Shown piece after piece: positions 15,595 through 22,989 of a stretch of 64,000 nucleotides of DNA. The stretch is taken from the NCBI RefSeq assembly GCF_023373525.1, contig NZ_CP097218.1, forward strand, positions 1,550,001 to 1,614,000, read 5' to 3'. This DNA comes from Brachybacterium kimchii. GTDB lineage: Bacteria > Actinomycetota > Actinomycetes > Actinomycetales > Dermabacteraceae. The number at the start of each line of letters is the position of its first letter. The stretch's first letter is position 1. A program made the translations under genes and the position numbers. The notes beneath the pieces were generated by a model. That model did no database searches. It was not told where the DNA came from and saw only the letters and a list, made by a program, of their open reading frames with translations.

Positions 15595-16275
15595 TCAGAT
15601 CCAGATGGCGGGGTCGACGAGCTCCTCGGGATGGGCGCGCTCGCGGCGCACCCGCGCGGGGACCCCGACGGCGGTCGCATGCGCGGGCACGTCGGCGACG
15701 ACCACCGCGTTGGCGCCGACCTGCGCCTGATCGCCGATCGCGACCGGGCCGAGCACGCGTGCACCCGCCCCGATGACGACGCCGTCGCCCACGGTCGGGT
15801 GGCGCTTCGTGCGCTCCATGGACCGGCCGCCCAGGGTCGCGCCGTGGTAGAGCATCACGTCGTCGCCCACCTCGGCGGTCTCCCCGATGACCACGCCCAT
15901 GCCGTGGTCGATGAAGAAGCGCCGTCCGATGCGCGCGCCCGGATGGATCTCCACGCCCGTCACCGAGCGGGTGGCCTGGGCGAGCAGGAGCGCGGGCAGG
16001 CGCCCGCCGCGCCCCGCACCCCAGAGGCGGTGGGCGAGGCGGTGCGACCAGATCGCGTGCAGTCCCGGGGAGGTCAGCAGCACCTGCAGGTCGGAGGTCG
16101 ACGCAGGATCGCGGTGGCGCGCAGCGGTCACGTCGTCGTGGACGGCCGCGAGCGCGCCGCGAAGGTCCGCGGCACCGGATCGTCCGTCTACCGGCGCGGT
16201 CGACGCGGCCGACGCGGCGGACCCGCGCACGAGCCCGCCGCGTCGGCCGCCGCGGACGCGGGAGAGGAGGCCCAT
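15595..16275 (-). CDS. cysE: Serine O-acetyltransferase
   Basis: A 226-residue CysE: an N-terminal helical region followed by left-handed beta-helix hexapeptide repeats (GVEIHPGARIG, VVIGETAEVGDDVMLYHGATLGG). The active-site block FIDHGMGVVIGE near residues 120-131 contains the catalytic His. It acetylates serine with acetyl-CoA to feed CysK. The first 35 residues are a poorly conserved Gly/Arg/Ala stretch. It follows cysK by only seven bases on the same strand, so cysK-cysE is an operon. The C-terminus ending DPAIWI resembles the tail with terminal Ile that inserts into the CysK active site to form the cysteine synthase complex. Confidence 0.93.
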   Translation of the reverse strand: MGLLSRVRGGRRGGLVRGSAASAASTAPVDGRSGAADLRGALAAVHDDVTAARHRDPASTSDLQVLLTSPGLHAIWSHRLAHRLWGAGRGGRLPALLLAQATRSVTGVEIHPGARIGRRFFIDHGMGVVIGETAEVGDDVMLYHGATLGGRSMERTKRHPTVGDGVVIGAGARVLGPVAIGDQAQVGANAVVVADVPAHATAVGVPARVRRERAHPEELVDPAIWI

Positions 16276-16282
16276 GCGGACC

Positions 16283-17212
16283 TCAGTCCATGTACTCGGC
16301 GTACAGCGGGGTCGTGAGGTAGCGCTCGCCGAAGGAGGGCACGACCACGACGATCCGCTTGCCCGCGAACTCGGGGCGCGAGCCCACGCTCACGGCGGCC
16401 TCGATCGCGGCGCCCGAGGAGATGCCCACGAGCAGGCCCTCGGTGCGGGCGATCGAGCGGGCGCGCTCCATGGCGGTCTCCGCGTCGATGTCGATGACCT
16501 CGTCGTACACGTCGGTGTCCAGCAGCGCGGGCACGAAGTTCGCGCCGAGGCCCTGGATCTTGTGGGGGCCGGGCTGGCCGCCGTTGAGGATCGGGGACTC
16601 GGCGGGCTCGACGGCGACGATCCGCACGCCGGGCCTGCGCTCCTTGAGGACCTGGCCCACGCCCGTGATGGTGCCGCCGGTGCCGATGCCGGCGACGAGG
16701 ACGTCGATCTCGCCGTCGGTGTCCTCCCAGATCTCCTCGGCCGTGGTGCTGCGGTGGATCTCGGCGTTCGCCTGGTTCTCGAACTGCTTGACCTGGACGC
16801 CGCCGGTCTCCGCGGCGACCTCCTGGGCCTTCTCCACGGCGCCCTTCATGCCCTTGGAGGCCTCGGTGAGCACGAGCTCGGCCCCGAAGGCGCGCAGCAG
16901 GGCGCGCCGCTCCTTGGACATGGACTCGGGCATGGTCAGGACGACCCGGTACCCGCGCGAGGTGCCGATCATGGCCAGGGCGATGCCGGTGTTGCCACTG
17001 GTGGCCTCGACGATCGTGCCGCCCTCCTCGAGCTCGCCGGAGCGTTCGGCCGCGTCGATCATGGCCACGCCGATGCGGTCCTTGACCGAGGCCGCGGGGT
17101 TGTAGAACTCGAGCTTGGCGACGACGTCGGCGACGACCTCGTCGCCCAGGTGATTCAGGCGCACGAGCGGGGTGCGGCCGACGAGCTCGGAGACGTTCTC
17201 GAAGATGGGCAT
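16283..17212 (-). CDS. cysK: Cysteine synthase A (O-acetylserine sulfhydrylase)
   Basis: The 309-residue PLP enzyme makes cysteine from O-acetylserine and sulfide. The PLP lysine is K44 in [11 protein letters not shown]. The substrate loop [12 protein letters not shown] (about residues 69-80) and the phosphate loop [10 protein letters not shown] (about 175-184) are intact. Length is typical. The ATG at 17212 has GGAAGGGA upstream. The downstream neighbour is cysE, consistent with an operon supplying cysteine, which in this organism would also feed mycothiol. A TATACT -10-like box lies upstream at 17283-17288. Confidence 0.95.
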
Positions 17213-17282
17213 GCGTGTTCCCTTCCGTCCGAGGCGGCGGTCCCGGCACACCGGCCCGCCACCCAAAGGTCTGCTTTAGGCG

Positions 17283-17288
17283 AGTATA
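17283..17288 (-). promoter_or_regulatory. Possible -10 box for cysK
   Basis: TATACT read on the minus strand lies about 70 bases upstream of the cysK ATG, in a locally AT-richer patch. No clear -35 hexamer is seen at 17 bases. The same patch reads TATAAG on the plus strand and could serve the divergent DUF5129-like gene instead. Confidence 0.4.
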
Positions 17289-17365
17289 AGGGCGCTCCCT
17301 GCGCAGGTGCAGGGACCGACGATCGGCGGGTCCGCCGTGCGCTCGGCGCTCCGTAGCGTGGAGCC

Positions 17366-18976
<1,611 letters not shown>

Positions 18977-20329: not shown

Positions 20330-21589
20330 ATGCCTTCGTCCCCCCCGACGGCCGATCCGGGCTTCGACGTCGTCGTGCTCGGAGCGGGTCTGAACACACT
20401 GAACCTCACGATCGCGTTCCATCAGGAGTACGGGATCGTGTCCACACTCGTGTGCCGCGTGCCCGTGGCGATGAACGAGCGCACCGTGACCGCGCGCAGC
20501 ATCGTGCTGGGCGCGGACGCGAGCGACGAGGAGATGCGCGACGTGCTCGTCGAGCTCGCGCAGCAGCGTCCCGCGGGCCGCCCCGCGCTGCTGCTGTGCA
20601 ACGCCGACTCGCTGGTCGCCTTCATCGACGCCCACCGGGCCGATCTCGAGGAGCACTACCTGCTCTCCCAGGTCGACGCCGCCCAGCTCGAGCGCCTCGC
20701 CGACAAGGCCGAGTTCCAGGAGATCTGCGCTGGCCTGGGCATCGCGACCCCGCCCACGAAGGTCGTGGACTTCGCGCGTGCCCGTGACGCGGACTGGGAC
20801 GGGGAGGATCCGCTGCCCTGGGCCTACCCCTGCGTGGGCAAGGCCGCGAACACCGCCGAGTACGGCCGGGTGTCCTTCCCCGGCAAGCGCAAGGTGTTCT
20901 TCCTCGAGAGCGAGGAGCAGCGTCTGCGTCTGGTGCGCAGCCTGCGCGACGCGGGCTTCACGGGCCGCTTCCTGTTCCAGGACCTGGTCCCGGGGGACGA
21001 CACCGCGCAGCGCTCGATCACCGCCTACCGCTCGAGCCGCGGACGCGTCACCCTGCTGTGCGCCGCACAGGTGCTGCTGGGCGAGCACACCCCGGAGGCC
21101 CTGGGCCGCCCGGCCGCGATGATCACGGGCGCCCACCCGCAGCTCGTCGAGGCCGCCTCGCGCTTCCTGGACGCGGTCGACTACGTGGGGTTCGCGAACT
21201 TCGACGTGAAGGTCGACCCGCGCACCGGCGAGCAGTGCTTCTTCGAGATCAACCCGCGGATCGGGCGCAACAACTACTACGTGACCGCCGCCGGCGAGTC
21301 CGTCGCCCGGCACATCGTCGAGGACCTCGTGCACGGTGAGGACATCGACCAGGTCGTGGTGACCCGCCCGGTGCTCTACACGATCCTGCCGGTGCGGCTC
21401 GTGCTGCGCTACGTCCGCGATGCGCACCTGCGGGCGCGCGTGAAGGACGTCGCCCGCACCGCGCTGGCGAATCCGTTCCTGTACCGTCCGGAAGGGGCCT
21501 GGATGAGGGCGTACGCCCGCACCTCGGGTCTCAACTTCGTGCGCAAGTACCTGCGCGTGTACCCGCGCCCGACCGACACCGGGTTCTGA
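20330..21589 (+). CDS. ATP-grasp carboxylate-amine ligase, D-aspartate ligase-like (copy 1)
   Basis: A 419-residue ATP-grasp protein (COG3919-like). Visible blocks: a Rossmann-like start VVVLGAGLNTLNLTIAFHQEYG, a GKAA-type nucleotide loop near residue 168, QDLVPGDDTAQRSITAY near residue 220, and the metal-binding core NFDVKVDPRTG then FFEINPRIGRNNYYVTAAG near residues 286-315. These blocks match, from memory, the enterococcal D-aspartate ligase that adds a D-amino acid to the peptidoglycan stem. The reaction would join a carboxylate to an amine using ATP on a cytosolic precursor. It lies 122 bases before a paralogue of the same length and layout. Substrate is inference. Confidence 0.75.
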   Translation: MPSSPPTADPGFDVVVLGAGLNTLNLTIAFHQEYGIVSTLVCRVPVAMNERTVTARSIVLGADASDEEMRDVLVELAQQRPAGRPALLLCNADSLVAFIDAHRADLEEHYLLSQVDAAQLERLADKAEFQEICAGLGIATPPTKVVDFARARDADWDGEDPLPWAYPCVGKAANTAEYGRVSFPGKRKVFFLESEEQRLRLVRSLRDAGFTGRFLFQDLVPGDDTAQRSITAYRSSRGRVTLLCAAQVLLGEHTPEALGRPAAMITGAHPQLVEAASRFLDAVDYVGFANFDVKVDPRTGEQCFFEINPRIGRNNYYVTAAGESVARHIVEDLVHGEDIDQVVVTRPVLYTILPVRLVLRYVRDAHLRARVKDVARTALANPFLYRPEGAWMRAYARTSGLNFVRKYLRVYPRPTDTGF

Positions 21590-21711
21590 CGGGACAGGTC
21601 CCGTCCGACCCCTCGGTCACCCGCCCGTCGGCCGCCCAGCCCATCGGCCGCCCATCCCGTCGGCCCGCCATCCCGTCGGCCGCCCCACCGCCCGTCCGAA
21701 GGAGATCATCC

Positions 21712-22989
21712 ATGGCTCCCGCCTCCTCGCGCTCCCGCGGCCCCGTCGAGCCTCGCGACGACTTCGACCTGGTGATGCTGGGCGGTGACATCGGGGTGTA
21801 CGCCCTGGCCCGCGCCTTCCACGAGCAGTACGGGACGATCTCGCACGTCATCACCCGCAGCGTCTCGGGGCCGATCGCTGACTCGCGGATCCTGGTGGCC
21901 GAGGAGCTCGGCGCGAGCGCCACCGAGGACGACCTCGCCGCCGCCCTGCTGCGCCACGGCCGGGAGCGCGCCGCGCGGCGCCCGGGCGTCCCTGCGATCG
22001 TGCTCGCGAACGCCGACTGGCTGATCGCACTGCTCAGCGCACACCGCGAGGAGCTCGAGGAGTTCTTCGTGCTGCCGGTGCTGGACGAGAAGACCCTCCG
22101 CGACGTCTCCGACAAGGCGACCTTCTCCGAGATCTGCACGACGCTCGGCGTGAGCACGCCGGAGACCGTGGTCGTCGACTTCACCGGCGAGGGGCCGACG
22201 GAGATCCCGGAGCTCCCGTTCGCCTTCCCCGTCGTCGCCAAGCCAGCCCGCTCCTCCGCCTACACGCACGTGGAGTTCGCGGGGAAGAAGAAGGTCTACC
22301 ACCTCACGGAGCCCGCCGAGCTCACGGACCTCGTGCACCGACTCGACGCGGCGGGCTTCGCCGACCGCTTCGTGGTCCAGGAGATGGTGCCGGGCGATGA
22401 CACCGCCATGCGCTCGATCACCGCCTACGTCGACCAGGCGGGCCGGGTGACGCTGCTCGGCGGCGCGCACGTGCTGCTCGAGGAGCACACCCCCGGCGCC
22501 CTCGGGAACCCGGCCGCGATGTTCACGGCCGACCCGGGCGAGATCGCCGTGCAGGCCGTGGCGTTCCTCGAGCTCACCGGCTACCGCGGCTACGCGAACT
22601 TCGATGTGAAGGTCGACCCGCGCACGGGTGTCGCGAAGTTCTTCGAGGTCAACCCGCGCATCGGGCGGAACAACTACTACATGACCGCGGCCGGGGCGAA
22701 CGTGGCGCGCGCGGTCGTCCGCGACGTCGTCGACCACGAGCAGATCGAGCGGATCGTCCCGGACGACGAGATCCTCTACTCGATCGTCCCCCGCCCCCTG
22801 CTCATGCGCTACGTGACCGAGCCCGGGCTGCGGGCCCGCGTGCGCCGCATCGCCCGCCACCGCACGGTGCACCCGCTGGCCTACGCCACCGAGGGCACGC
22901 GCCGTCGCGCCTACATCGCCGTCGCGATGGCCAACCAGGTCAAGAAGTTCCTCACGCACTACCCGCGCCCGTCCTCCAGCGGATTCTGA
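21712..22989 (+). CDS. ATP-grasp carboxylate-amine ligase, D-aspartate ligase-like (copy 2)
   Basis: A 425-residue paralogue of the preceding gene. The same blocks occur in the same order: LVMLGGDIGVYALARAFHEQ, FPVVAKPARSSAY, QEMVPGDDTAMRSITAYV, NFDVKVDPRTG and FFEVNPRIGRNNYYMTAAG. The N-terminal GGDIGVYALAR block is closer to enterococcal D-aspartate ligase than copy 1. Both end in a basic helix followed by YPRP and a short tail ending GF. AAGGAGATC precedes the ATG. Two such ligases in series could add two acidic D-residues to make a dipeptide cross-bridge, or one may have another acceptor. No racemase or Mur ligase is adjacent. Confidence 0.78.
   Translation: MAPASSRSRGPVEPRDDFDLVMLGGDIGVYALARAFHEQYGTISHVITRSVSGPIADSRILVAEELGASATEDDLAAALLRHGRERAARRPGVPAIVLANADWLIALLSAHREELEEFFVLPVLDEKTLRDVSDKATFSEICTTLGVSTPETVVVDFTGEGPTEIPELPFAFPVVAKPARSSAYTHVEFAGKKKVYHLTEPAELTDLVHRLDAAGFADRFVVQEMVPGDDTAMRSITAYVDQAGRVTLLGGAHVLLEEHTPGALGNPAAMFTADPGEIAVQAVAFLELTGYRGYANFDVKVDPRTGVAKFFEVNPRIGRNNYYMTAAGANVARAVVRDVVDHEQIERIVPDDEILYSIVPRPLLMRYVTEPGLRARVRRIARHRTVHPLAYATEGTRRRAYIAVAMANQVKKFLTHYPRPSSSGF

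Follow-up and report, generated by a model that had tools for sequence, protein, structure and literature searches.

Tandem ATP-grasp ligases of Brachybacterium kimchii as candidate D-glutamate ligases of the peptidoglycan bridge

The ligase pair and its locus

The analysed DNA, a window of 64,000 nucleotides from Brachybacterium kimchii (contig NZ_CP097218.1), contained two ATP-grasp ligase genes in tandem on the forward strand. Copy 1 (positions 20330 to 21589) encoded 419 aa and copy 2 (21712 to 22989) encoded 425 aa. Both open reading frames started with ATG and were intact, and the products shared 47% identity over their whole length (E 1e-116), which confirmed the homologous tandem of the original prediction. 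The equal length stated there was not found, the proteins being 6 residues apart. The spacer of 122 bases (21590 to 21711, forward strand) held the ribosome-binding sequence AAGGAG at 21699 to 21704, 7 bases 5' of the copy 2 ATG, an arrangement consistent with a single transcription unit. A GC-rich unit of 16 bases, CCCGTCGGCCGCCCAx, was also repeated there approximately four times, between 21608 and 21690. The gene trpS was located upstream on the opposite strand, and genes for a PEBP-like protein, a glycosyltransferase and a VTT-domain protein were located downstream. Two adjoining open reading frames were present at 15887 to 18976, one (489 aa) without a family match and the other affiliated with DUF5129/TPM.

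Four motifs had been put forward as shared with D-aspartate ligase. All were present in copy 2, which showed a canonical family sequence. Copy 1 held VPGDDTAQRS, NFDVKVDPRTG and GRNNYY and lacked the first block, showing GAGLNTLNLT where copy 2 has GDIGVYALAR. The GRNNYY motif was located on the forward strand at 21263 to 21280 in copy 1 (residues 312-317) and at 22663 to 22680 in copy 2 (residues 318-323). It contains one member of the Glu-associated residue set described below, N314 in copy 1 and N320 in copy 2, and this position is S320 in racemase-linked and lactobacillus ligases. The deviation noted for copy 1 in its first block was real and was shared by its close orthologues, in which G28, Y30 and R34 (copy 2 numbering, as for all family positions below) were replaced by N, L and I, respectively, at positions 94-99% conserved elsewhere in the family. 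The ATP-grasp catalytic residues were retained, with K135, K177, E312, N314 and R316 of copy 2 and the matching residues of copy 1 invariant in 40 sequences. As copy 1 kept all invariant family columns despite its N-terminal losses, it is expected to be active, with an altered acceptor site. Values of dN/dS were 0.03-0.13 for copy 1 and 0.11-0.22 for copy 2, indicating purifying selection on both and stronger selection on copy 1.

AlphaFold models of the pair were confident, with mean pLDDT values of 92 and 94, and both had the ATP-grasp fold. The best match in a structure search was 2pn1, a carbamoyl-phosphate-synthase-like protein, with a Z score of 26-27, and PylC was among the next with a Z score of about 24. 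No family naming either protein was found in Pfam or NCBIfam, where both gave weak ATP-grasp matches only. The match to PRK12767 (carbamoyl-phosphate synthase-like) reached 39.6 bits, below the NCBIfam cut-off of 316. A search of the PDB by sequence with copy 2 gave no match, and neither protein matched the FemAB domain (PF02388).

Relatives with links to peptidoglycan synthesis

Both proteins were homologous over their whole length to ligases of lactobacilli, including L. curvatus, with 25-31% identity and E values of 1e-44 to 1e-54. The Latilactobacillus relative was located in an operon of aspS, racemase and ligase, and the Lactobacillus crispatus relative came straight after asnB. In lactic acid bacteria the aslA operon includes a racemase, and the bridge is amidated by an asparagine synthase (PMC4155827). 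An asparagine synthase gene was also found immediately upstream of the copy 1-type ligase in Dermabacter, Devriesea and one more Dermabacteraceae strain. In the B. kimchii genome, asnB was rejected as a general partner; the Asn_synthase match there was partial and unlinked. Several conserved clusters of open reading frames were likewise rejected as operon partners and had no wall role (DUF3000, exonuclease, thiolase, amylase). In Devriesea agamarum (L078, 3591-5099), the copy 1-type ligase showed an apparent insertion of about 60 residues near residue 81.

FemAB proteins add L-residues or glycine from tRNA. Their genes adjoined the single ligase gene in Knoellia aerolata and Paeniglutamicibacter antarcticus and lay within 4-8 kb of a ligase gene in Promicromonospora, Oerskovia, Cellulosimicrobium, Antribacter and Sanguibacter keddieii. 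Sanguibacter, with one FemAB and one ligase, has a Lys-Ser-D-Glu bridge (PMC3035225). No FemAB was found in the B. kimchii genome, in any Dermabacteraceae tested or in the Cellulomonas and Isoptericola genomes tested. The FemAB-ligase gene pairs of Knoellia aerolata (L172, 3825-7278) and of a genome with another family label (G302; L064, 4023-6582) were very similar, each with a racemase nearby, which suggests horizontal transfer or misplacement. In several families, the opposite strand encoded, at a distance of 0.3-1.2 kb from the ligase, a penicillin-binding protein (transglycosylase, transpeptidase and PASTA domains) or one of its relatives (L059, 6264-8876; L087, L130, L131 and L070).

The assignment to the D-aspartate-ligase-like ATP-grasp group, made from the sequence in the original prediction, was borne out by the fold and by the homology to racemase-linked lactobacillus ligases. 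A role in the peptidoglycan bridge was supported by the FemAB, Asp/Glu racemase and asparagine synthase genes adjoining relatives and by the lactobacillus operon. It is well supported that the two proteins are a pair of peptidoglycan bridge ligases.

Copy number and distribution

At least two ligase copies were present in all 36 Brachybacterium genomes, including that of B. kimchii; three genomes with additional entries were fragmented, contaminated or frameshifted assemblies. Two copies are a fixed trait of the genus. By strand and identity, about 22 genomes carried a tandem like that of the window and 14 a convergent pair. Copy 1 formed one clade with the first copy of the convergent species and was the constant member, its orthologue occurring in both arrangements. 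The second member was copy 2 in the tandem genomes; in other Brachybacterium its place was taken by a racemase-linked ligase that belongs to a distant branch. In the 14 convergent genomes, the racemase gene occupied the gap between the two ligases.

The other Dermabacteraceae sampled held two copies in nearly all cases and one copy in one case. Nearly every one of the 81 Cellulomonas genomes searched had a single copy. In the phylum-wide sample, full-length relatives came from the order of Brachybacterium and from families that lie outside its class; the matches listed for the remaining orders within the class were weak and partial, with none full-length among them. The best 80 relatives from the contig search were nearly all actinobacterial. 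Oceanobacillus chungangensis (L137) and Bacillus timonensis (L161) each had a single Asp-like ligase close to the actinobacterial ones and without a linked racemase, possibly acquired by transfer.

Racemase linkage and residue sets

An Asp/Glu racemase gene was located directly downstream of the ligase on the same strand, at a distance of 2-230 bp, in 39 of 118 tree entries. The clade holding copies 1 and 2 comprised 66 entries and none was racemase-linked. On the tree, the racemase label required 6 changes compared with 32.8 in shuffles, and a mixture-model tree of 78 entries agreed (4 changes versus 19.5). In Cellulomonas, all 15 copies in one branch were accompanied by the racemase, compared with none of the 17 copies in the other. 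No racemase gene, the linkage expected of a D-aspartate ligase, was found beside either B. kimchii copy. It was present beside the replacing second copy of the convergent Brachybacterium, and the B. kimchii genome encodes an Asp/Glu racemase elsewhere.

Seven columns split the branches. The racemase branch has S/C100, I235, R247, W291, L317, S320 and E338, and the other branch has N, S, T, Y, I, N and D. Copies 1 and 2 and the ligases of Sanguibacter and Kytococcus sedentarius showed N-S-T-Y-I-N-D at all seven columns. Racemase-branch residues occupied six or seven columns in C. flavigena, C. bogoriensis and A. fermentans, and the C. flavigena ligase fell in the racemase branch. The Lactobacillus enzymes had C100, K247 and S320. 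Where lactobacillus and racemase-linked ligases share S/C100, K/R247 and S320, both B. kimchii proteins have N, T and N. Neither residue set was found in Beutenbergia and Paeniglutamicibacter. Kytococcus joined the Dermabacteraceae clade of copies 1 and 2 with a support of 97/95. By tree position, residue set and the absence of a linked racemase, copies 1 and 2 belong to the Glu-associated branch as defined here. The features tested place the pair outside the D-aspartate ligases, which it probably resembles in its mode of action.

A few Cellulomonas (L235 in G713, L236 in G650 and L256 in G692) held a third, distant ligase type with about 35% identity to copy 2 and a FemAB gene about 1.5 kb downstream. 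Its residues at the seven columns were N-V-R-Y-Q-T-D in G713, from which the two-branch rule does not predict a substrate.

Wall composition of documented species

The A4-gamma wall type, given in the original prediction, is stated for the Dermabacteraceae, with meso-diaminopimelate (PMC6090031), and for B. faecium, with mDAP, Ala and Glu in the wall (PMC3035206). The number of A4-gamma bridge residues was not found in the accessible literature. Of 12 documented species, nine agreed with a rule that assigns Asp to the racemase branch and Glu to the other (one-sided Fisher about 0.12, calculated by hand on related, non-independent species). With this value and the kinship of the species, the rule rests mainly on racemase linkage and residue pattern.

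Asp was reported and an Asp-type ligase present in C. flavigena (Orn-D-Asp; PMC3035266), A. fermentans (Orn-D-Ser-L-Asp; PMC8878594) and, from published reports, C. bogoriensis (Orn-D-Asp) and B. avium, which has Asp in the wall and an Asp-type second ligase with racemase. No Asp was reported and the Asp-type ligase was absent in Kytococcus sedentarius (Lys-Glu2; PMC3035214), S. keddieii, Beutenbergia (Lys-L-Glu; PMC3035217), B. faecium and B. vulturis (no Asp in the wall; PMC6090031). The latter two carry the tandem pair. Three species disagreed. Cellulomonas carbonis is reported with Orn-D-Glu (PMC8878594), yet its ligase is Asp-type and racemase-linked. B. equifaecis has a wall reported without Asp, yet carries an Asp-type copy, and B. 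nesterenkovii is reported with Asp in the wall (PMC10581053), yet the genome presumed to be B. nesterenkovii holds two Glu-type copies. The last two species also conflict with the simpler rule that a convergent arrangement means Asp in the wall, which holds in part. Part of the wall data was obtained by thin-layer chromatography, with preparations in which glycine was seen as well, so that impurity is possible; this was not used to dismiss the conflicts.

Several further species were left out of the 12-species count. The walls of C. fimi, C. uda, C. cellasea and C. chitinilytica contain D-Glu, those of Oerskovia and Cellulosimicrobium contain D-Asp, and Isoptericola has Lys-D-Asp. The genome paper of C. 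fimi does not give the wall type. For the 14 convergent Brachybacterium genomes, the gene content predicts Asp plus Glu in the wall.

Proposed bridge synthesis and alternatives

Copies 1 and 2 are proposed to be cytoplasmic ligases building the interpeptide bridge of A4-gamma peptidoglycan. Each would use ATP to turn the side-chain carboxylate of a D-amino acid into an acyl phosphate. One ligase would couple the D-amino acid to meso-diaminopimelate at its free amino group, with the UDP-MurNAc-peptide or a lipid precursor as carrier, and the other would extend the bridge by attaching a second residue to the amino group of this D-amino acid. Without an adjacent racemase and with the residue set of the Glu branch, both are most likely users of D-glutamate, which MurI would supply, so that the bridge of this strain would be meso-DAP - D-Glu - D-Glu. 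D-glutamate is a likely substrate of both enzymes, judged from the sequences. We infer the reaction, the D-Glu specificity and the action in series, and consider two bridge ligases in series, most likely both using D-Glu, the moderately probable arrangement. The two D-aspartate ligases of the original prediction are unlikely, as both copies have Glu-associated residues and neither adjoins a racemase gene; D-Glu is the better guess.

A bridge of meso-DAP - D-Asp - D-Glu or D-Asp2, made in series by two D-Asp ligases or by one for each amino acid, is an improbable alternative. It would agree with the homology to AslA-type ligases and with Asp in some Brachybacterium walls, including that of B. 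nesterenkovii with its two Glu-type copies, and the racemase encoded elsewhere in the genome means that D-Asp may be available. The missing racemase beside both genes, the Glu-type residues at 7/7 positions in each protein and the same tandem in B. faecium and B. vulturis, reported without Asp, stand against it. Slightly less probable again is that one enzyme, probably copy 2, adds one or both bridge residues alone, as the Kytococcus enzyme may, with copy 1 serving another amino group, another precursor or as a partner subunit. Kytococcus sedentarius has one ligase copy and no FemAB despite Lys-Glu2, so that a bridge of two residues does not necessarily require two ligases. The general rule that the number of copies equals the number of acidic residues was rejected on this case, which also weakens the counting argument of the original prediction, two ligases for two residues. 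The loss of several near-invariant N-terminal residues, with which copy 1 could have another substrate, also suits a single bridge enzyme. It is copy 1, however, and not copy 2, that is kept in every Brachybacterium arrangement, with all invariant family columns intact and under the stronger purifying selection. That the pair makes a different amino-acid conjugate, such as a small dipeptide, a cofactor tail or a secondary metabolite, is very unlikely. ATP-grasp ligases with this fold form a variety of amide bonds, the nearest structures are the carbamoyl-phosphate-synthase-like protein and PylC, and the immediate neighbours trpS, PEBP-like gene and glycosyltransferase gene are not bridge genes; against this stand the links of relatives to FemAB, racemase and asnB, the copy numbers of one in nearly all Cellulomonas genomes and two in Brachybacterium, and the lack of full-length relatives in other orders of the class among the matches listed.

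Two D-Glu ligases in series, the preferred reading, would extend to a wider and more tentative proposal, to which we give slightly less than even weight. Here, the pair would represent an uncharacterised class of D-glutamate bridge ligases marked by seven residues, with meso-DAP as the acceptor of one enzyme and the first D-Glu as that of the other, and Brachybacterium would switch between Glu-Glu and Asp plus Glu through a swap of the second ligase along with its racemase.

Relation to known systems

Acidic A4-type bridges have been a classification character of actinobacteria for half a century. To our knowledge, the characterised enzymes for such bridges are limited to D-Asp ligases from lactic acid bacteria and enterococci. 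Copies 1 and 2 have the ATP-grasp group in common with Aslfm of Enterococcus faecium and AslA of Lactococcus and lactobacilli, as measured by homology to the lactobacillus relatives. They differ in lacking a linked racemase, in their Glu-associated residues, in the tandem of two enzymes and in the presumed acceptor, meso-DAP instead of Lys. The chemistry of AslA has been reviewed (PMC4155827). The racemase-linked ligases of Cellulomonas flavigena, Isoptericola, Oerskovia and the second copy of other Brachybacterium share family, fold and size with the pair and are sister copies within the genus, but differ in the racemase 2-230 bp downstream and mostly in S/C100, I235, R247, W291 and S320 in place of N, S, T, Y and N. 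PylC acts in the pyrrolysine pathway, where it links D-ornithine to L-lysine at the side-chain amine. It is similar in fold and, by analogy, in placing a D-amino acid on a side-chain amine, but shares only 12-15% identity and serves another pathway with other substrates. FemABX enzymes form bridges on the same kind of precursor but belong to an unrelated family that uses aminoacyl-tRNA.

If the two-branch rule holds, Asp or Glu in the bridge becomes predictable from the genome in many genera and the enzymes of D-Glu bridges become assayable. C. flavigena and C. fimi, as well as B. avium and B. vulturis, are natural contrast pairs. Demequina (L130 and L131) and Isoptericola (L096 and L098) held a Glu-type and an Asp-like ligase in tandem without FemAB, which predicts two non-tRNA residues in their bridges.
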